From assembly GCA_011524535.1 (NCBI GenBank), contig WTKD01000005.1, positions 1 to 64,000 on the forward strand: a DNA stretch of 64,000 bases, written 5' to 3'. A program made the translations under genes and the position numbers. Source of the stretch: Spirochaetaceae bacterium. GTDB lineage: Bacteria > Spirochaetota > Spirochaetia > WTKD01. The stretch's first letter is position 1, and every line of letters begins with the position of its first letter. Under the pieces are notes generated by a model that saw only the letters and a program-made list of their open reading frames with translations, made no database searches and was not told the DNA's origin. Below, in pieces: positions 51,163-60,378 of this stretch.

Positions 51163-51873
51163 CTATTCAAACTCTTCATGTTCCTGAAATAATAATGCCG
51201 ATTGGTGAATCCAGCCAGATAGTTCTGAGCCATTTGTAACTCGAATATAATCTTCGAACTTTTCATGAGTATAAAGAACCGTTCCTGGTTTTATAGCAAT
51301 CCGATTTTGAGAATCCTTGCTGGGTATACGCGCTATTGATGCATCGAGCCGATAGACTACGTCGAAATCTACCCGCTCTATGCTACGGGCCAAAAAGAAA
51401 TAAATAGCGAAGCAGACAAATAGCCCCCCGCACACAAACAATCCTATTTTTGTCTGAGATCTTTTCTTTCCGAACACAAAAAGAACCAGTAACAAGCACA
51501 ATATAACCCAACAGCAAAGCATACCCAAATAAGCGATATCTGATGACAAAAACCAAGGGATTTCTACCTGCTGTTCTAATCCAAATTCAGACTCGATTTG
51601 GGCCAATTGCTCACGATAGAGCGTACTCGTTGGGGCATATCTGACCGCCTTATGAAAATAATACACTGTTTCCACAGGATTCATGGCGTAGGCGCGGAAA
51701 CCTTTCATATACAAAAATGCACTGCTTGTTGAGTTCTCGGTGAGTAATGTCTGTATCTCGTCATTATCAAGTGATTCCAACTCGGAAAACGTCATTGAAT
51801 CATGCATAAGCACACAGCCAATGCTTATTGTACACATGAATAGGCTCACAAATAATACAACTCTATTTTTCAC
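51163..51873 (-). CDS. batE: BatE-like TPR/SH3 membrane protein
   Basis: The 236-residue protein has a signal or anchor segment (1-20, ending SIGC, a possible lipobox), a short TPR-like helix pair (SSAFLYMKGFRAYAMNP, near 50-66), two membrane spans (about 113-132 and 143-162), and a C-terminal SH3-type domain (GTVLYTHEKFEDYIRV, SGWIHQSALL). This is the layout of Bacteroides BatE. It ends the operon. Its function within Bat systems is unknown. Confidence 0.72.
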   Translation of the reverse strand: MKNRVVLFVSLFMCTISIGCVLMHDSMTFSELESLDNDEIQTLLTENSTSSAFLYMKGFRAYAMNPVETVYYFHKAVRYAPTSTLYREQLAQIESEFGLEQQVEIPWFLSSDIAYLGMLCCWVILCLLLVLFVFGKKRSQTKIGLFVCGGLFVCFAIYFFLARSIERVDFDVVYRLDASIARIPSKDSQNRIAIKPGTVLYTHEKFEDYIRVTNGSELSGWIHQSALLFQEHEEFE

Positions 51874-52861
51874 GTGAATTCCTATCCAAAATGATAATTG
51901 TGACCGAAACCCCGATACCGAGTGGAAGAAACAAACACAATAGAATTATGCTTGGTTGATACATAAGATCGCGAAACGGTCTAACAGCTGCTACATCCGA
52001 GTCTGAAAATTCTCCACCAAATACTAGCTGGATATCTTCAACGTCCTTTTGAACCTGGAAGAGGATTTCACCTCCTTGCTGTTGTACATATTCGCCGGTC
52101 ATCGAATCAAATACAATGAAATTCGGAAGTTCTATAGTATATGCATCAGCCGATCTGCTAGAGACTTCATACTGAATGATCCTATTTCCCTGATACCCTA
52201 GGACGCTAGTTTCGGCATCGTGCCGGTCATCTAGCAAGGCGATTGTTGCAAGGCTGGATGTAGGTCCAGGGTAATTGATAAAAGGAATATTTCCTTCACC
52301 TGAGAAGGTAACGGTAATGGTTGCTGTTTCACCTGGTTTTATCCGCGTTTTGTCTATGACATATGAAAACCCCAAGGAACCTATCCCGTGTACTTCTCGC
52401 GGCAAAGAACGTACCAAGACGGTTTTCTCAACAGAACGATAGGTATTTTCTCCAAGGGTGACTTCAGATAGAGGAAAGGTCAATGCCCCCTCGCGTCCGG
52501 GTGTTAACAAAAAGGCGGCAATAGGAATAGAATACGAAATTCCACCAGGGTCATTATTTTCCTTGATTTCGCCCACTCCATACACTTCCTCAAAAATACT
52601 GTCTGCGGGAATACCAATGTCTATATTCTCTGGAAATTCCAGCATAGCATGCTTTTCCAAAACCAAAGAATACAACACACTCTGTCCAGCATATAATTCG
52701 TTCGGGCCAAGCCATTTCAAAGAAGTTTGCGATCCTGTAGCAAAAAATTCTTCTAGATAAAATTCTTGAGCTTGTATGAATACACACAAGGGAAGAAACA
52801 AAAACAACCCAATGTACAAACATACGCGCCAGCTGCATATACTCATCCTGCTACCAGTCAT
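51863..52861 (-). CDS. batD: BatD-like protein (short)
   Basis: The 332-residue protein has an N-terminal signal peptide (to about residue 31), a run of beta-sandwich segments of the BatD type (LYAGQSVLYSLVLEKHA, KPGETATITVTFSG-like near 180) and a C-terminal membrane span near 305-325. BatD in Bacteroides and Leptospira is normally 500-600 residues, so this one is about half to two-thirds length. The first ATG overlaps the batC end by 11 bases; a second at 52844-52846 is possible. Confidence 0.75.
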   Translation of the reverse strand: MTGSRMSICSWRVCLYIGLFLFLPLCVFIQAQEFYLEEFFATGSQTSLKWLGPNELYAGQSVLYSLVLEKHAMLEFPENIDIGIPADSIFEEVYGVGEIKENNDPGGISYSIPIAAFLLTPGREGALTFPLSEVTLGENTYRSVEKTVLVRSLPREVHGIGSLGFSYVIDKTRIKPGETATITVTFSGEGNIPFINYPGPTSSLATIALLDDRHDAETSVLGYQGNRIIQYEVSSRSADAYTIELPNFIVFDSMTGEYVQQQGGEILFQVQKDVEDIQLVFGGEFSDSDVAAVRPFRDLMYQPSIILLCLFLPLGIGVSVTIIILDRNSREK

Positions 52862-53429
52862 TCATATCTACTCTGGCATCACTCGTTGAACGCTCAATTT
52901 TCGTTTGTTCGATACGTTGCACATAGTCCAAAACTCTTGCATACTCACTCTTATCCTGTGTTACACTCACCTGCGGGATCTGTGGATCCAGCTCATTTGA
53001 AATTCTACCGTGGGTTAATTCCAGCATTTTTTTTATTTCGATATCGTGTCCATGTATGCGCACTGCCTGTTTTAACAATGAATAGGCCTTCGTATAATTT
53101 CCTTCTTGATAATATAACACCCCATCATTGAACAAGGAACGTGCAGCCAAGTTCTCGTTGCTACTAGTCGCCGAGATACGCCAAGCCTCGTGTGCCGCAT
53201 TCGCTTCTCCAAGGGCAATATAGACCAACCCTAAATTGTAGGAAACAAAGGGGTTTTCAGCCTCATCGGCTCGTAAAAATTGTTGCAAGGCTTCAGAAAA
53301 TTTTCCACTGGTATAGAGTGAATTCCCACGTAAAAAATGATAATACGAATTACTGCCATTGCATCCCATCAAAAAAAATGAAACGATCGATAGATATCCA
53401 CACAAAGAAAAAAATCTATATTTTTGCAT
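52851..53429 (-). CDS. batC: BatC-like TPR lipoprotein
   Basis: The 192-residue protein begins with a lipoprotein signal (to Cys23 in FFLMGCN) and has three TPR-like repeats (GKFSEALQQFLRADEA, NPFVSYNLGLVYIALGEANA, and GNYTKAYSLLKQAV). BatC is the TPR partner of BatB in Bacteroides. The ATG at 53427-53429 has GGTGAG at a good distance; an in-frame ATG four codons upstream lacks it. It precedes batD with an 11-base overlap. Confidence 0.78.
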   Translation of the reverse strand: MQKYRFFSLCGYLSIVSFFLMGCNGSNSYYHFLRGNSLYTSGKFSEALQQFLRADEAENPFVSYNLGLVYIALGEANAAHEAWRISATSSNENLAARSLFNDGVLYYQEGNYTKAYSLLKQAVRIHGHDIEIKKMLELTHGRISNELDPQIPQVSVTQDKSEYARVLDYVQRIEQTKIERSTSDARVDMNDW

Positions 53430-53468
53430 ATTACTCACCATTTAGGTGTACAGTTGCTGCTCCAGCAA

Positions 53469-54446
53469 CTACTGTTTCCATGGTATTGTTCCAATCCACA
53501 AAATACCAGCAAAACACATAAGAGCAATACTCACAAACAATCTATACCGTGCTGCACTCACTTTTTCAATAGATTGATCTGTATTGCGAAACTCTTGCAA
53601 GAAGGAAACGATGCGAAGAAAACTCTCTTCTGTTCCCCCACTGAGAAACAAACCATTGGTTGCCGCTGCAATCGATTTTAATAGTTTTGGATTCGCCTTT
53701 GAGATGACAACATCCCCACTGCTAGTGTTAATGAGTGTTCCTTCGTCTGTTTTTATAGTACTTCCTTCTGTTGAACCAACCGCAACGAGTATAAATGTTT
53801 TACCGCTATTTTTTGCCTTCTGAATTGCGACCGACTCTTGTCCATTTACCAATTCACCATCACTCAATACAATAATTACCTTATTACGGTTGCTGGGAAA
53901 TGATGCACTATTTGAAGCAATTTCTATACCCCTGGCTACATTGCTACCTGGGGCAGACATAAGATTTGGGTCAATCAATTGCATTGCCCGCTGCAAGGAT
54001 AACTGATCTTGGGTAAGCGGCACGAGTAGAATCGCATCGCCCTTAAAGACACTCAAGGAATACCAAAGATCGGGGAAATAATTTACTATACTGCGTATCA
54101 ATACCTGCGAATATTGTAGACGTGTAGGATATACATCGTCTGCGAGCATGCTATTAGATACGTCCAGTAAAAAACTAACTTCAACTCCATTCTTTTCTCT
54201 CGATACAGTTTTGCTTCCTTGATAAACATCCGCATAGGCAAACACAAGCGATGCCATCATTACTAGCAACAAGAAACTCGGAAGAATCAATTTCACACCC
54301 AGTAAAACCCTTTGTCTCTGCATCCATTGTTTTCCACACAAAAATATAGCCTGTTTTATCGTTGAGCGGTATATAAAAATCAAGATGAAAACAAGAGGTA
54401 TGAGGAGAACCAACAGCCAGAGTGCATCTCTATACGCGATCACCAT
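53469..54446 (-). CDS. batB: BatB, VWA-domain membrane protein
   Basis: The 325-residue protein has two N-terminal spans (about 8-28 and 51-72), a von Willebrand A domain with the MIDAS motif DVSNSM (near 95-100), the conserved Thr and SDGE segments, and a C-terminal span near 303-322. It is the VWA partner of BatA. Its start overlaps the batA stop by seven bases. Confidence 0.88.
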   Translation of the reverse strand: MVIAYRDALWLLVLLIPLVFILIFIYRSTIKQAIFLCGKQWMQRQRVLLGVKLILPSFLLLVMMASLVFAYADVYQGSKTVSREKNGVEVSFLLDVSNSMLADDVYPTRLQYSQVLIRSIVNYFPDLWYSLSVFKGDAILLVPLTQDQLSLQRAMQLIDPNLMSAPGSNVARGIEIASNSASFPSNRNKVIIVLSDGELVNGQESVAIQKAKNSGKTFILVAVGSTEGSTIKTDEGTLINTSSGDVVISKANPKLLKSIAAATNGLFLSGGTEESFLRIVSFLQEFRNTDQSIEKVSAARYRLFVSIALMCFAGILWIGTIPWKQ

Positions 54447-55447
54447 ACGAACGACTCCCGTAAAAACACTTTTCGAATAATCAAATCAACACAAAATAGG
54501 ATCATAATGAGTAATAAGCATTCTCGATATATAGGTCGGGATTCTGCGATATAACGATATTCGTTTTTGGTCTCACTTTTACTCTCTATTGTTAAGAAAG
54601 CCTGCTCGAGAGAGGCTACATTGTTAACAGCATAGAAATCACCACCCGTTTGCTCCGCTATCTCCTGCAAAAGAACGGGATCATAGGAGTCAGCGATCAT
54701 CCCTTGTAACCCAACACCGTCTTCTCCTCCTTCAATATTCACCGGGACACTCTCATTTGTACCAATCCCAATAGAATGGAGTACTATTCCGTACGATGCT
54801 GCAATTTCACTGGCATAGATAGAACTATATTCACCGCTATTCTGTTTCCCATCCGTTAGAACAATCAGTATCTTTTCATCGCTGCCACCGCTTCTTAAAT
54901 ACAAAATGCCATGCAAAATACCCATCCCCAGGGAGGTTGCATCTCCCAATGTGAGGAGCGGCACTTCCTCCAATGTCCGAGAAAAATAATCATAATCGAG
55001 TGTTGGCGGTACCCGCAACACCGTTTCAGTTGCAAAACCAACCAATCCGATTGCTTCCGTTGTCCTGTTCTTAACAAAATTCTGTATTACTTTTTTCGCT
55101 ATTTCGAAACGAGAAAGAGACCCTGCATCCAATGCCCCCATACTCGGCGACTCATCCAATACAACAATGATCTCCGATCCTTGGGTTGTGTATACTTGTT
55201 CACGCCTCGTTATGGCTGGATCTGCCAATAAACATACCAATAAAATAACCGCTATCCAGCGGCATAACGATGCCCCTCTGTGCAGAAGGCGAGCAAAAAT
55301 CAGGCTAGGACGATACGGTTGGGTCGGGTACAGCGATATTGCGCAGGGAAAATCACTACCAGCGCTCCTACCCGTATAACTCAGATACATCGCAAATACA
55401 ATAAGGAAAAATAATAACAAATAGATAGGTTCATTGAATACTATCAC
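54440..55447 (-). CDS. batA: BatA, VWA-domain membrane protein
   Basis: The 335-residue protein has an N-terminal span (about 7-23), a second near 60-80, a VWA domain with MIDAS motif DESPSMG (near 103-109) and LTDGKQNSG (near 200), and a C-terminal span near 308-327. In Bacteroides, bat mutants have lower tolerance to oxygen; in Leptospira biflexa deletion gave no clear oxidative phenotype, so the true job is still open. It overlaps the upstream gene by 17 bases. Confidence 0.88.
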   Translation of the reverse strand: MIVFNEPIYLLLFFLIVFAMYLSYTGRSAGSDFPCAISLYPTQPYRPSLIFARLLHRGASLCRWIAVILLVCLLADPAITRREQVYTTQGSEIIVVLDESPSMGALDAGSLSRFEIAKKVIQNFVKNRTTEAIGLVGFATETVLRVPPTLDYDYFSRTLEEVPLLTLGDATSLGMGILHGILYLRSGGSDEKILIVLTDGKQNSGEYSSIYASEIAASYGIVLHSIGIGTNESVPVNIEGGEDGVGLQGMIADSYDPVLLQEIAEQTGGDFYAVNNVASLEQAFLTIESKSETKNEYRYIAESRPIYRECLLLIMILFCVDLIIRKVFLRESFVW

Positions 55448-56339
55448 GAGAATATACCATACGCTCCATAGATGCTGATTTTTTTACGAAATACTCCAGC
55501 TCGGTGCGAACTGCGCGCAATTCGACCTCGGTATACACCTCCCCGGCGTACATAACCTTGTCTGCACGTTCCAATAAGGTTTGCATACAGTCATGAGCTT
55601 CTTTTTCCATCGCAAAAGATTTAAAACTATGAGCTAATTCACTCCTTGTCGCAGAATCTAGGGTCGGATGGTACGCCTTAGCCAATATGAAACGAATGAA
55701 CTCTGATATGCTCCTAAATAGAGTCATTTGATCATCAACAGAAAACAACTTCGTGATGACTTTATACTTTCTGCGCATTCCATACCATTCCTGTAATTGT
55801 TTGTATAACTTAACGAGAGAAATAGTACGTAAAAATTTTACGCCGTATCGTGTTGCAAATACAATAATGCCCAATGCAATCAATAAACCAATCCCATATA
55901 CCAATGTTCGGGGATACAAAATAAGCCCCTTGAATAGGGTCGGTTGGTCGGTTACAGATGGCAATATCGAAGAAATTACCGTCGACTGTCCTCGAATCGT
56001 GTGCGGCCCTACTATCATCGGAGGAATCACAACCGTTCCTGCCCTGTATGCAACAAATATGATCTCCACTACGGTCTGATTTCCACGTCCTTGGTAAGAT
56101 GTTCCTATTATTTCTCCCCAATCGATTTCTTCACTCAGCCGTACCTCATAGCCCTCTTGGTTGAATCCCACATCCAGTACGAGTTGCATAATCGCCTCAT
56201 CTCCCACATAAATAACATCAGGGATGATTTTCACAAACCGCGCCGGGATTTCATCTGCTTGAAGCTCATGCACGGTAAGACCAAAAAAAACGAGTAGTAG
56301 TTTCAAAAAAAATAGAGATTTACCCGCGTTACTGTACAT
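55431..56339 (-). CDS. Bat-operon membrane protein (DUF4381-type position)
   Basis: The 302-residue protein has a signal peptide (to about residue 29), an extracytoplasmic beta-rich region resembling a BatD fragment (GDEAIMQLVLDVGFNQEGYE), a membrane span near 146-165, and a cytoplasmic helical tail. In other bat operons the gene between the DUF58 gene and batA encodes a small membrane protein of the DUF4381 kind; this fits by position and layout, not by a clear signature. It overlaps the DUF58 gene by 11 bases. Confidence 0.65.
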   Translation of the reverse strand: MYSNAGKSLFFLKLLLVFFGLTVHELQADEIPARFVKIIPDVIYVGDEAIMQLVLDVGFNQEGYEVRLSEEIDWGEIIGTSYQGRGNQTVVEIIFVAYRAGTVVIPPMIVGPHTIRGQSTVISSILPSVTDQPTLFKGLILYPRTLVYGIGLLIALGIIVFATRYGVKFLRTISLVKLYKQLQEWYGMRRKYKVITKLFSVDDQMTLFRSISEFIRFILAKAYHPTLDSATRSELAHSFKSFAMEKEAHDCMQTLLERADKVMYAGEVYTEVELRAVRTELEYFVKKSASMERMVYSRDSIQ

Positions 56340-57198
56340 TTCTTCGAAAAAACCTCAGCAAAACTTCCATAGGATCTTCATCGCCTCCTAGGCTAACGTA
56401 CAAAACTCCAAGCTTTGTGCATGTTTTGATCCATTGTTGATGCTTTTTATTCCAATATTCTTGCATACCTTGGCGATAATGTATCGATCCAGTAAAAAGA
56501 TGCGTTTTCACACTCGTCTCGGAGTCAATGATTGGTATCGTGCCTACGTTTGATAATTTTCCAAGAACGTCATCATTTATTTTTATGGCGATAACCGTGT
56601 GCTTTTTTACCAACAAACTGAGATCACGCTCGTATTGTTCTGTCTTAAAATCAGAAATAATGACGCAAACACCCCGCTTTTTCAGAAAACGATTTGTCAT
56701 CCGAAGTGCTTTGTCGAGGCGTGTCCCTGCGTTTTTTTTCGAAAGTTTCTCAAACAAGGACACTATATTAAGTATATGTCTATAATCTTTTCGTGGAGGA
56801 TAAAATTTTTCGATTGCATCCCCAAAAAACAGAGCTCCAACTTTATCACTATTGCTGCACGCAGCAAGTGCCAACAGTGTTAGGACCTGGGATGTAATTT
56901 CGATGGTTTGGGTCTCTCCGTGAGAAAAAAATATCGATGCGGAAATATCTACGATGAAAAAGAGCGTTACCTCGCGTTCTTCTTTGAATACTTTTGTATG
57001 AGGGATTTGCCTTCGCGCAGTCACGTTCCAATCCATGAGCCGTACGGGGTCACCGTAACTGTATTCTCGGGTCTCGTCGAACTCAACCCCTCTCCCTCTA
57101 AAAATGGATCTATAGTTTCCCGCGATGATACCGCGTACCATTCGTTCTGCCAACAAAAACAATCGTCTTAATTTTGGGTTTTTTGCTAGCAACCGCAT
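56329..57198 (-). CDS. DUF58 domain protein
   Basis: The 289-residue protein has the DUF58 signature near the N-terminus (FRGRGVEFDETREYSYGDPV, then LMDWNVTARR) and a VWA-like half (LFFIVDISASIFF near 80-92) with an incomplete MIDAS. DUF58 proteins are usually encoded with MoxR ATPases and are thought to be their partners in assembling or activating complexes with VWA proteins. It follows moxR by seven bases. Confidence 0.92.
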   Translation of the reverse strand: MRLLAKNPKLRRLFLLAERMVRGIIAGNYRSIFRGRGVEFDETREYSYGDPVRLMDWNVTARRQIPHTKVFKEEREVTLFFIVDISASIFFSHGETQTIEITSQVLTLLALAACSNSDKVGALFFGDAIEKFYPPRKDYRHILNIVSLFEKLSKKNAGTRLDKALRMTNRFLKKRGVCVIISDFKTEQYERDLSLLVKKHTVIAIKINDDVLGKLSNVGTIPIIDSETSVKTHLFTGSIHYRQGMQEYWNKKHQQWIKTCTKLGVLYVSLGGDEDPMEVLLRFFRRNVQ

Positions 57199-57205
57199 GT
57201 TGTTC

Positions 57206-58192
57206 CTAGGGTAAAGCTATCGAAGCAAGAATTTTTTCAAGTATTTCGTCAACACTGAGCCCTTCTGCCTCAGCTTCATAAGAAAGCACTATTCTGTGTC
57301 GTAGGACGGATCGTGCAACACTTTTTACATCTTCAGGGAGAACATAATTCCGCTTATTGTAGATAGCTTGGACTCGGGCACAACGTATAAGCGCTAGCGA
57401 GGCCCTGGGCGAGGCACCAAATTCTATCAATCTTGCAAACAGTCCTTGTTTATGTTCGCTTGGGCGGGTCAAATTTACCACTTGTACAGCATACTGTGCC
57501 ACGCGATCATCCACATGGATCCCTTCCAAGATTCTCTGTACCTGCAAGATCGTATTAGTGCTTACCACTTTCTGGATACGCTGAGGGTTTTCTATCGCAT
57601 GTTTTTTAATGATGGCCATCTCTTCCTCTTCACTCGGATAGCCAATCGTCAGTTTCATAACAAATCGATCGAGTTCTGCCTCGGGTAACACATAGGTTCC
57701 TTCCTGTTCGATAGGGTTTTGAGAAGCAAGTACAAAAAACGGATCGGGAAGGATCAATGTCTGCGTCCCGATGCTCACCTGACCTTCTTCCATTGCCTCA
57801 AGTAATGCAGCTTGGACCTTTGCTGGAGCACGATTGATTTCGTCCGCGAGGACGATGTTTGAGAATATTGGCCCTCTGCGAATAATAAAATCTGTTTTTT
57901 CCGGTCGATACATCATCCCGCCGGTAATATCAGCAGGGAGTAAGTCCGGCGTAAACTGTATTCTAGAAAAACTTGCATCTATCGTCTGGGCAATAGATTT
58001 AATAATCATCGTCTTTGCAAGTCCCGGCGCCCCCTCAAGCAGCACATGTCCTTTCACAAGTAATCCAATAATCAGTCCCCGCACAATATGTTTCTGACCA
58101 ACAATGTATTTTTGTATCTCGGTTTCAAGGAGAGACAACATCTCCGATGTTTGTTCTATATCTTTTTGAGGAATGCTTCCGTATGCGTTCAT
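57206..58192 (-). CDS. moxR: MoxR-type AAA+ ATPase
   Basis: The 328-residue ATPase has Walker A GAPGLAKT at 54-61, the TPDLLPADITGG block, Walker B VLADEINRAPAKVQAALLEAM, and sensor ASQNPIEQEGTYVLPEAELDRF; these are standard for MoxR. MoxR proteins are chaperone-like and act with VWA partners. An ATG at 58190-58192 lies one base after the argJ stop and was chosen; two upstream ATGs would overlap argJ by up to 82 bases. It is the second gene of an operon headed by argJ. Confidence 0.94.
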   Translation of the reverse strand: MNAYGSIPQKDIEQTSEMLSLLETEIQKYIVGQKHIVRGLIIGLLVKGHVLLEGAPGLAKTMIIKSIAQTIDASFSRIQFTPDLLPADITGGMMYRPEKTDFIIRRGPIFSNIVLADEINRAPAKVQAALLEAMEEGQVSIGTQTLILPDPFFVLASQNPIEQEGTYVLPEAELDRFVMKLTIGYPSEEEEMAIIKKHAIENPQRIQKVVSTNTILQVQRILEGIHVDDRVAQYAVQVVNLTRPSEHKQGLFARLIEFGASPRASLALIRCARVQAIYNKRNYVLPEDVKSVARSVLRHRIVLSYEAEAEGLSVDEILEKILASIALP

Positions 58193-58193
58193 G

Positions 58194-59459
58194 TCAGGAT
58201 CGGTACTCTGCATTAATACTAACATATTCTTGAGATAAATCAGACCCGATGATCTGCGCTTGTTCATCTCCAGCATCCAAATCTATAACTATATCCACAT
58301 TCCCCTTGTTTTCGGGAAAAGCAAGAGTCGAATCCTGTTGCATGGATCTAAGATAGTCACCTAGTTTCTTTTCAAGTGTTTGATTTAACAGGGTTTTTCC
58401 CTCTTGAAAAACCAATGTCTCTCCCAAAAACACGCTGGTGTTATGCACCAAGGCTTGGTCTTCGGTCGATTTTCCTATCGCCATGAGAATCCTACCAACA
58501 TTTGGATCGTTTCCATATATTGCAGATTTTACAAGTAGTGAATTTGCCACTCCACGAGATATTTGCCTCGCAATCTCTGTAGACGGAGCCCTTTTTGTGG
58601 TTACTTTTATAACATGTGTCGTACCTTCACCATTTTGTACAATATCGGTAGCCATCTTCTGTGACATAGCCTCCAAAGCGGAAAAAAAGGTGTTTTCATC
58701 AACTCCATGGTAACGATTAGAACTAAGGAATAACACGGAATCACTCGTACTCGTGTCGGAATCTATTGATATGGTGTTAAAACTCTTGGACGCTGATTCG
58801 ACTAGCATGGTTTGCATGCTTTCTCTTGGTAATGCGACGTCCGTAAAAATAAACACCAGCATCGTAGCCATATTTGGCTCAACCATTCCCGCTCCCTTGG
58901 CCACCATGCATATACTACTACCATCATCAAAACTATGTCGTAATAATTTTGGATACCGATCGGTGGTCTTTATTGCCTGAGCAAAATCGAGAACATCGTG
59001 ATTTTCTGCCAAAGATAGGGCGCGAATAGTTGTATTCATTTCATCAACGGGCAACCTCCAACCAATAATTCCCGTTGAAATCGATAGGCATTCTTCGCGG
59101 GGAACTTCCAATAAGGTTCCAACCGATTCTGTGATCGACTCAGCATCGGCATAGCCCGTGCCAACCAGTACGTTTGAAAGGCAATTATTGACATGTATAG
59201 CGCGCCAATTCTTTTCCTTCATGCGCTCACGCAAAAGTATGATCGACGCTCCAGGAAAAGCATTTTTTGTTGTAATAGCAGCAAAAGAAGGGGTTGATTC
59301 TTTAAGATACACAAGGCTACCCGATAAACTGTACACATGCTCTCCTCCTTTCTCTCTCGGAGAAAAAGAAAGGCGATAGGTTTGACAATGAAACCCACGA
59401 GGCCACAGTGATATTGTGCGTAGATGCTCTAAATATGCAGCCTCAGAATTATAGACCAT
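58194..59459 (-). CDS. argJ: Bifunctional ornithine acetyltransferase / N-acetylglutamate synthase
   Basis: ArgJ makes acetylglutamate and moves the acetyl group from acetylornithine to glutamate in arginine synthesis. The 421-residue protein has the self-cleavage site with its catalytic threonine in KGAGMVEPNMATML (near residue 198), the SFNTISIDSDTSTSDS block and GNDPNVGRILMAIGKS. The chain is cut before Thr into two subunits. It starts with an ATG six bases after a strong -10 and has no leader. Its placement ahead of moxR and the bat genes ties an amino-acid gene to that operon. Confidence 0.96.
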   Translation of the reverse strand: MVYNSEAAYLEHLRTISLWPRGFHCQTYRLSFSPREKGGEHVYSLSGSLVYLKESTPSFAAITTKNAFPGASIILLRERMKEKNWRAIHVNNCLSNVLVGTGYADAESITESVGTLLEVPREECLSISTGIIGWRLPVDEMNTTIRALSLAENHDVLDFAQAIKTTDRYPKLLRHSFDDGSSICMVAKGAGMVEPNMATMLVFIFTDVALPRESMQTMLVESASKSFNTISIDSDTSTSDSVLFLSSNRYHGVDENTFFSALEAMSQKMATDIVQNGEGTTHVIKVTTKRAPSTEIARQISRGVANSLLVKSAIYGNDPNVGRILMAIGKSTEDQALVHNTSVFLGETLVFQEGKTLLNQTLEKKLGDYLRSMQQDSTLAFPENKGNVDIVIDLDAGDEQAQIIGSDLSQEYVSINAEYRS

Positions 59460-59465
59460 GCATTA

Positions 59466-59494
59466 GTTATACAGCAAGAAGCAAGCGAACTCAA
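59466..59494 (-). promoter_or_regulatory. Promoter of argJ and the bat operon (leaderless)
   Basis: On the minus strand TTGAGT (59489-59494) and TATAAC (59466-59471) are 17 bases apart. Six bases (TAATGC) then lead to the ATG, so transcription should start at, or within a base of, the A of the start codon. Confidence 0.7.
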
Positions 59495-59579
59495 GCTCAG
59501 ATGTTTTTTGGTATCTATGATCATAGATTATATGCTGGCACATCAGGTTTTTCATTATATCGCCAGACGTACTGTTCGG

Positions 59580-59607
59580 TTGTCATTGTATTACTAGTTG
59601 GTATACT
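59580..59607 (+). promoter_or_regulatory. Probable promoter of the SMUG1 gene
   Basis: TTGTCA (59580-59585) and TATACT (59602-59607) are 16 bases apart. The transcription start would be near 59614, about 15 bases before the ATG at 59629, with no Shine-Dalgarno site in between. Confidence 0.55.
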
Positions 59608-59628: not shown

Positions 59629-60378
59629 ATGGATATTTCGCTTCTCTCATCTATATTTTCTCAGCAATCTGATGATCTATCCGCATGTAATTATGCTCCC
59701 TATAAGGTATACAATCCACTTGTATACGCGCGCGAACCCTTTGAGCGCTATTTACAACAATCAAAAGGAGCCTCTATTGAAACCATCTATTTCGGTATGA
59801 ATCCAGGCCCTTGGGGAATGGCTCAGACGGGAGTACCCTTTGGAGAAATAGAATCGGTTACCCAGTGGATGGGAATTTCTGGAAAAATAGATATGCCGGA
59901 AGCCCCCATCGAAAAACGTCCTATCCTGGGATATGCAGCTACCCGTCGGGAGGTGAGTGGTATGCGATTATGGAATCTTTTTAAAGAACTGTATGGAGAG
60001 GCTCCCCGATTCTTCAGAAAAAGCACAGTACTAAATTATTGTCCCTTATTATTTTTTGACGAATCGACCAAGAACATAACCCCAGCCACACTCCCAAAAC
60101 AGATACGTTCAGCCGTTGAACTCATTTGTGATAACACTCTTTCTAAAATCATACGATTGCTGGATCCAAAAAATTGCGTTGCTATTGGCAGATACGTAGA
60201 AAAGCGACTTCTTTCCATCCTAGGCCTCGAAAAGAAGCCAAAAGAATATAGCGATACGAATGAGCCATCTATCTTTCATATTCCCCATCCAAGTCCTGCA
60301 AACCCACAGGCAAACAGAGATTGGTCGAGTCAATGCAAGATAATTCTGGCTGATATACTACCACAGCAGTCATTGTAA
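59629..60378 (+). CDS. SMUG1-type uracil-DNA glycosylase
   Basis: SMUG1 removes uracil and oxidised pyrimidines such as 5-hydroxymethyluracil from DNA in base excision repair. The 249-residue protein has both catalytic motifs: GMNPGPWGMAQTGVPFG at about 56-72 (with the catalytic asparagine of the G-M-N-P-G loop) and HPSPANPQANRDW near 223-235. SMUG1 is typical of vertebrates but occurs in scattered bacteria. It is monocistronic, and its end is 17 bases from the convergent nuclease-like gene. Confidence 0.94.
   Translation: MDISLLSSIFSQQSDDLSACNYAPYKVYNPLVYAREPFERYLQQSKGASIETIYFGMNPGPWGMAQTGVPFGEIESVTQWMGISGKIDMPEAPIEKRPILGYAATRREVSGMRLWNLFKELYGEAPRFFRKSTVLNYCPLLFFDESTKNITPATLPKQIRSAVELICDNTLSKIIRLLDPKNCVAIGRYVEKRLLSILGLEKKPKEYSDTNEPSIFHIPHPSPANPQANRDWSSQCKIILADILPQQSL

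Follow-up and report, generated by a model that had tools for sequence, protein, structure and literature searches.

The window, a 64,000-nt stretch of contig WTKD01000005.1 from a Spirochaetaceae bacterium (assembly GCA_011524535.1), carries a string of nine minus-strand genes in which argJ comes first and MoxR/Bat genes follow, as an earlier note on this DNA had described (Table 1). Neighbouring genes overlap or are separated by gaps of at most 27 nt, and the position of argJ at the head is conserved. By Pfam, the components that define a MoxR/Bat cluster (MoxR ATPase, DUF58, VWA, TPR and BatD) are encoded co-directionally here, BatD being barely above its cut-off. The likeliest start of moxR, judged by homology, is the ATG at 58192, just past the argJ stop codon, in a reading frame that is open from 58276.

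Table 1. Genes and promoter-like features of the argJ-moxR-bat locus (window coordinates)
Feature	Coordinates	Strand	Remarks
Palindrome ATCTATGATCATAGAT	59513..59528	.	perfect, 16 bp; over P2 start region; possible operator
P2, ATGAAA-17-TATAAT	59527..59555	-	-10 to ATG 67 nt; predicted leader about 60 nt
P1 -35 element, TTGAGT	59489..59494	-	read from sequence; class EM-fit consensus CTTG[A/C]A[A/C]
P1 -10 element, TATAAC	59466..59471	-	first T 12 nt before start codon
argJ start codon, ATG	59457..59459	-	read from sequence; transcription start predicted at A59459
argJ	58194..59459	-	421 aa; PF01960
moxR	57206..58192	-	AAA+ ATPase; PF07726
DUF58 protein gene	56329..57198	-	PF01882
302-aa protein gene	55431..56339	-	no family above curated cut-off
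VWA protein gene	54440..55447	-	BatA/BatB-like
VWA protein gene	53469..54446	-	BatA/BatB-like
TPR protein gene	52851..53441	-	BatC-like
BatD-like protein gene	51863..52861	-	PF13584; 24.5 bits, cut-off 24.1
236-aa protein gene	51163..51873	-	last gene of string; no Pfam match

The order of these genes is widely kept within the class: 91 of 108 loci have moxR downstream of argJ on the same strand at a distance of at most 300 nt (mostly within 60 nt), and a DUF58 gene is present in 100 of the 129 loci examined. The short gaps and conserved order make it likely that the nine genes are co-transcribed. The string resembles that of Leptospira biflexa, where moxR and the bat genes form one co-directional string, although we did not find argJ described at its head in that study (PMC3557215). 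The same work, using qRT-PCR, suggested additional independent promoters inside the L. biflexa bat cluster, and this calls for caution over the claim of a nine-gene operon. We found no description of argJ-moxR linkage in the searchable literature.

The argJ start region and the source genome

Directly before argJ, the earlier note had read TTGAGT, 17 bases, TATAAC, six bases and ATG, with no Shine-Dalgarno (SD) sequence, and had predicted a leaderless mRNA. The layout on the minus strand agrees with this to the base (P1; spacer 59488-59472, then TAATGC at 59465-59460), and no AGGAGG-like run occurs in the 20 bases that precede the ATG. The start codon itself is well constrained: an in-frame TAA (59465-59463) two codons upstream excludes a longer frame, no alternative ATG, GTG or TTG start was found upstream of the conserved PRGF motif, and ArgJ relatives align from residues 1-3.

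The 17-nt spacing of the P1 hexamers lies within the sigma-70 range of 16-18 nt. The element matches the sigma-70 consensus at 9 of 12 bases, with C in place of T at position 6 of the -10, the base that standard -10 elements conserve best; for this reason it does not appear in a consensus promoter scan, which in the region as a whole returned 19 sites where 26.7 were expected, that is, at or below chance. As in TA-led genes, a -10-like box places its first T at -12 (TATAAC, -12 to -7), but the C at position 6 departs from a strict TANNNT pattern. Rfam gave no RNA element at the argJ start site. Taken alone P1 is thus modest and unremarkable, more than chance would give, yet in need of relatives to settle it.

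The source genome (1.42 Mb in 14 contigs, of which 1.17 Mb was examined as stretches) places P1 in a wider setting. Within the 1.17 Mb, TANNNT boxes are enriched at precisely 11 nt ahead of well-defined starts (22 versus about 9 nearby), and sites scoring at least as highly as that of argJ occur at an offset of 5 nt in 35 of 954 genes (3.7%) and at an offset of 6 nt in 15 (1.6%), with about 6 genes expected in each case; the chance rate for a P1-like score at a given offset is about 0.6% of genes. The excess at offsets 5 and 6, together with that of TANNNT boxes, indicates a real minority of leaderless starts in this genome, argJ among them. SD motifs are in use there too; the assembly contains no 16S gene from which an anti-SD sequence might be read. 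The closest relatives found share no more than about 44% protein identity, so that conservation within the organism's own lineage cannot be read base by base.

Conservation of the argJ promoter across the class

We gathered argJ and its upstream DNA from the class, the named relatives being Spirochaetia/Spirochaetales assemblies and most of them metagenome assemblies; Leptospira falls outside the class sampled here. Start codons in the relatives were set by rule from protein landmarks, independently of any promoter, and removal of similar upstream sequences left 98 non-redundant regions. This removal, together with counting by family, lessened the effect of kinship among genomes. With generic sigma-70 matrices, untrained on these data, the best site in 73.5% of the 98 argJ upstream regions fell 5-9 nt ahead of the start codon, compared with 9.8% in shuffled sequences and 17% in other genes of the argJ loci. 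An SD motif precedes 13% of class argJ genes as against 58% of neighbouring genes.

An unsupervised expectation-maximisation (EM) fit to the same 98 regions, with a flat distance prior over 0-44 nt, returned a two-part consensus, CTTG[A/C]A[A/C]-17 or 18-TATAA[T/A/C]-6 to 8 nt-ATG, with spacers of 17 nt (67%) or 18 nt (30%). The fitted distance is 5-9 nt in 77 of the 98, an offset of 6 nt being commonest (33/98), and the argJ of the window ranks 25th of 98 and fits the trained model. Position 6 of the -10 is itself degenerate across the class (T 0.41, A 0.25, C 0.24), which lowers the promoter score of P1 but leaves the family-level case intact. Since many relatives carry the same TATAAC variant (for example L007, L039, L185, L190, L199 and L200), the objection to its C at position 6 is answered. 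An RpoH-like promoter, prompted by the CTTGAAA-type -35, was considered and set aside, as the spacing and the -10 suit a sigma-70 type.

The two-part form of the signal also bears on whether the A/T-rich block before the argJ ATG might be a translational element, unstructured or bound by ribosomal protein S1, on a leadered mRNA and no promoter at all. The upstream A/T bias of non-SD genes has been discussed as a sign of leaderless promoters or, alternatively, of S1 sites (PMC5397173). However, in nearly all the fitted sites a TTG-type -35 and TATAA are separated by 17 or 18 nt, and an S1 site requires neither a second block nor a fixed spacing; we regard this explanation as very unlikely.

A site of at least 4 bits is found in 79% of 105 class argJ loci compared with 7.4% of shuffles; sites occur in one or more members of 26 of the 30 families and in a majority of members in 22. 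The columns flanking the two promoter blocks hold nearly zero information, which argues that the motif does not reflect mere relatedness. SD motifs and sites tend to exclude one another, an SD occurring in 6 of 86 argJ loci with a site and in 9 of 22 without (Fisher p = 0.0003). Where the argJ start is displaced upstream by 2-6 codons, as in eight loci (L011, L024, L168, L171, L208, L212, L236 and L250), the promoter is still 5-7 nt away. Several exceptions look SD-led on inspection (L005, L021, L180, L183, L192 and L246), as would be expected of a gene that switches between modes. The start codon is ATG in the window and in 90 of 105 relatives.

The proposal of a leaderless argJ mRNA thus gains support on three sides: a strongly conserved bipartite promoter whose spacing to the start codon is fixed, the loss of SD motifs, and a promoter that follows the start codon when it is displaced. 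On this comparative evidence the predicted leaderless arrangement of argJ is inherited and not a chance match. That P1 is fortuitous, the argJ of the window having lost an ancestral leaderless start, would be consistent with its incomplete consensus, its lack of T at position 6 and its offset of 6 nt, whereas the genome's own peak is at 5; but an offset of 6 nt is just what class argJ genes favour, a match of this score and offset would arise by chance at only the low rate given above, and the window's argJ has no SD to take the place of P1. This is extremely improbable.

The argJ loci that lack an adjacent moxR are informative, as 11 of 16 keep the leaderless promoter by the same site test; the trait is therefore one of argJ, with no specific tie to the MoxR/Bat genes. 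The predicted leaderless promoter is at the head of a conserved argJ-moxR-bat string. Other genomes of the class carry a shorter type of ArgJ, in which the match begins only at about residue 50 and whose gene lies directly behind argC (examples are L281, L283, L286 and L291); this is a second lineage of ArgJ, encoded in another gene context.

A distal candidate promoter, P2, lies further upstream and outscores P1 (10.1 versus 7.1 bits), with a perfect TATAAT. Its start region is covered by the palindrome ATCTATGATCATAGAT, which occurs in a single copy in the window, even at 2 mismatches, in the intergenic region between argJ and a uracil-DNA glycosylase-like gene. It could thus be argued that argJ is transcribed mainly from P2, perhaps under a regulator bound at the palindrome, with P1 as a minor or second start. 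In 107 relatives, however, the sites found 35-125 nt upstream score no higher than those of shuffled sequences (mean 4.96 versus 4.91), and scores of at least 9 bits at this distance are found in 5% of relatives and 4% of shuffles, a background at which a P2-like score is expected by chance in about one region in 20-25. P2 as a promoter conserved over the class is ruled out by this lack of excess; transcription chiefly from P2 would also leave the proximal motif of the 26 families unexplained, and the resulting leader, about 60 nt long, would lack an SD. We consider it unlikely as the main source of argJ mRNA, though P2 may be a second, lineage-specific start. The divergent gene (59629-60378), of the uracil-DNA glycosylase superfamily, has a TG-extended, promoter-like site, TTGTCA-16-TATACT (59580-59607), about 21 nt before its own ATG.

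We therefore propose, as highly probable, that a sigma-70-type promoter joined directly to the start codon drives argJ transcription, in a leaderless and inherited arrangement that heads the gene string. RNA polymerase would use TTGAGT-17-TATAAC and begin at A59459 or no more than about two bases from it. The argJ mRNA would then have neither an SD nor a usable 5′ leader, and the ribosome would have to initiate at a 5′-terminal AUG, presumably by 70S-type initiation. As leader of the co-directional argJ-moxR-bat string, argJ would probably be co-transcribed with it as far as the last bat gene. The arrangement would be inherited in most families of the class, within a gene-specific set that includes pyrG and era.

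argJ within a set of predicted leaderless genes

Four further families were tested across the class. For era, taken as a control (L252-L280), a start-proximal site is present in 63-70% of loci (put more broadly, about 50-70%) and an SD in 19%. For pyrG, picked from the source genome's own list, these values are 88% of 26 class loci and 12%, the sites often being TTGACA-like with TATAAT or ATAAT about 8 nt before the ATG (L141:3204-4814 in the source genome; L360-L387 elsewhere). A site in the source genome had suggested a leaderless rplU as well; over the class this is ruled out, as 0 of 27 rplU genes have a start-proximal site and 78% have an SD. The fourth family, argC, has sites in 8-12% and an SD in 83%. 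The argC match in the source genome (G000 contig C5:90852-91847) is above cut-off but contains an internal TAA, reflecting either a broken gene or an assembly error.

Thus argJ is not a unique case, since era and pyrG share its arrangement; and since rplU and argC are SD-led, the leaderless state is gene-specific and heritable over the class. By these comparisons, argJ is a member of a heritable set of predicted leaderless genes together with pyrG and era.

Leaderless genes are already known as a kind. In a survey by Zheng et al. (2011, PMC3160421), TA-led genes across bacteria have a -10-like box whose first T is about 12 bp before the start and have no SD, and among spirochaetes leaderless genes were counted in 6 of 18 genomes (mean 3.9%). 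The argJ gene is like these in its first T at -12 and its lack of an SD, but differs in that the class argJ -10 is often without the final T of TANNNT. That survey counts per genome, and we found neither argJ nor a class-wide, gene-specific spirochaete set in its main text. In Leptospira interrogans, differential RNA-seq detected leaders shorter than 10 nt on about 440 mRNAs, which is experimental proof of leaderless mRNAs within the phylum, with argJ unnamed in the main text of that report (PMC5243855). Experiments in Deinococcus-Thermus support leaderless expression driven by a -10 element that directly adjoins the ORF (PMC12340547); this is another phylum, and class argJ genes conserve a clear -35 as well. 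The searchable literature yielded no report of a leaderless argJ, nor of such class-wide, gene-specific conservation of leaderless starts.

Leaderless genes are usually tallied per genome, whereas here the argJ promoter would have stayed fused to the start codon in most of the families sampled, although the surrounding DNA has been randomised; a few other genes behave alike, rplU and argC being SD-led. Whether selection favours leaderless translation in each gene separately, or the trait is simply passed down, thereby becomes a question open to test. The result also supplies a usable list of those spirochaete genes in which no 5′-UTR should be expected. Initiation by 70S particles on leaderless mRNAs, and its link to stress, have been reviewed (PMC9031893 and PMC8138138). 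More speculatively, and this we consider unlikely, the class might keep a fixed core of genes (at least pyrG, argJ and era) on leaderless mRNAs by selection, as a translational regulon that is preferentially read when stress alters initiation factors or ribosomes, into which argJ would bring the MoxR/Bat genes.

In the source genome, about 80 genes have a strong start-proximal promoter and are without an SD, a number that includes chance matches; among them, judged by N-terminal sequence only, are genes for elongation factor G-like, ParA-type ATPase-like and PTS enzyme I-like proteins.
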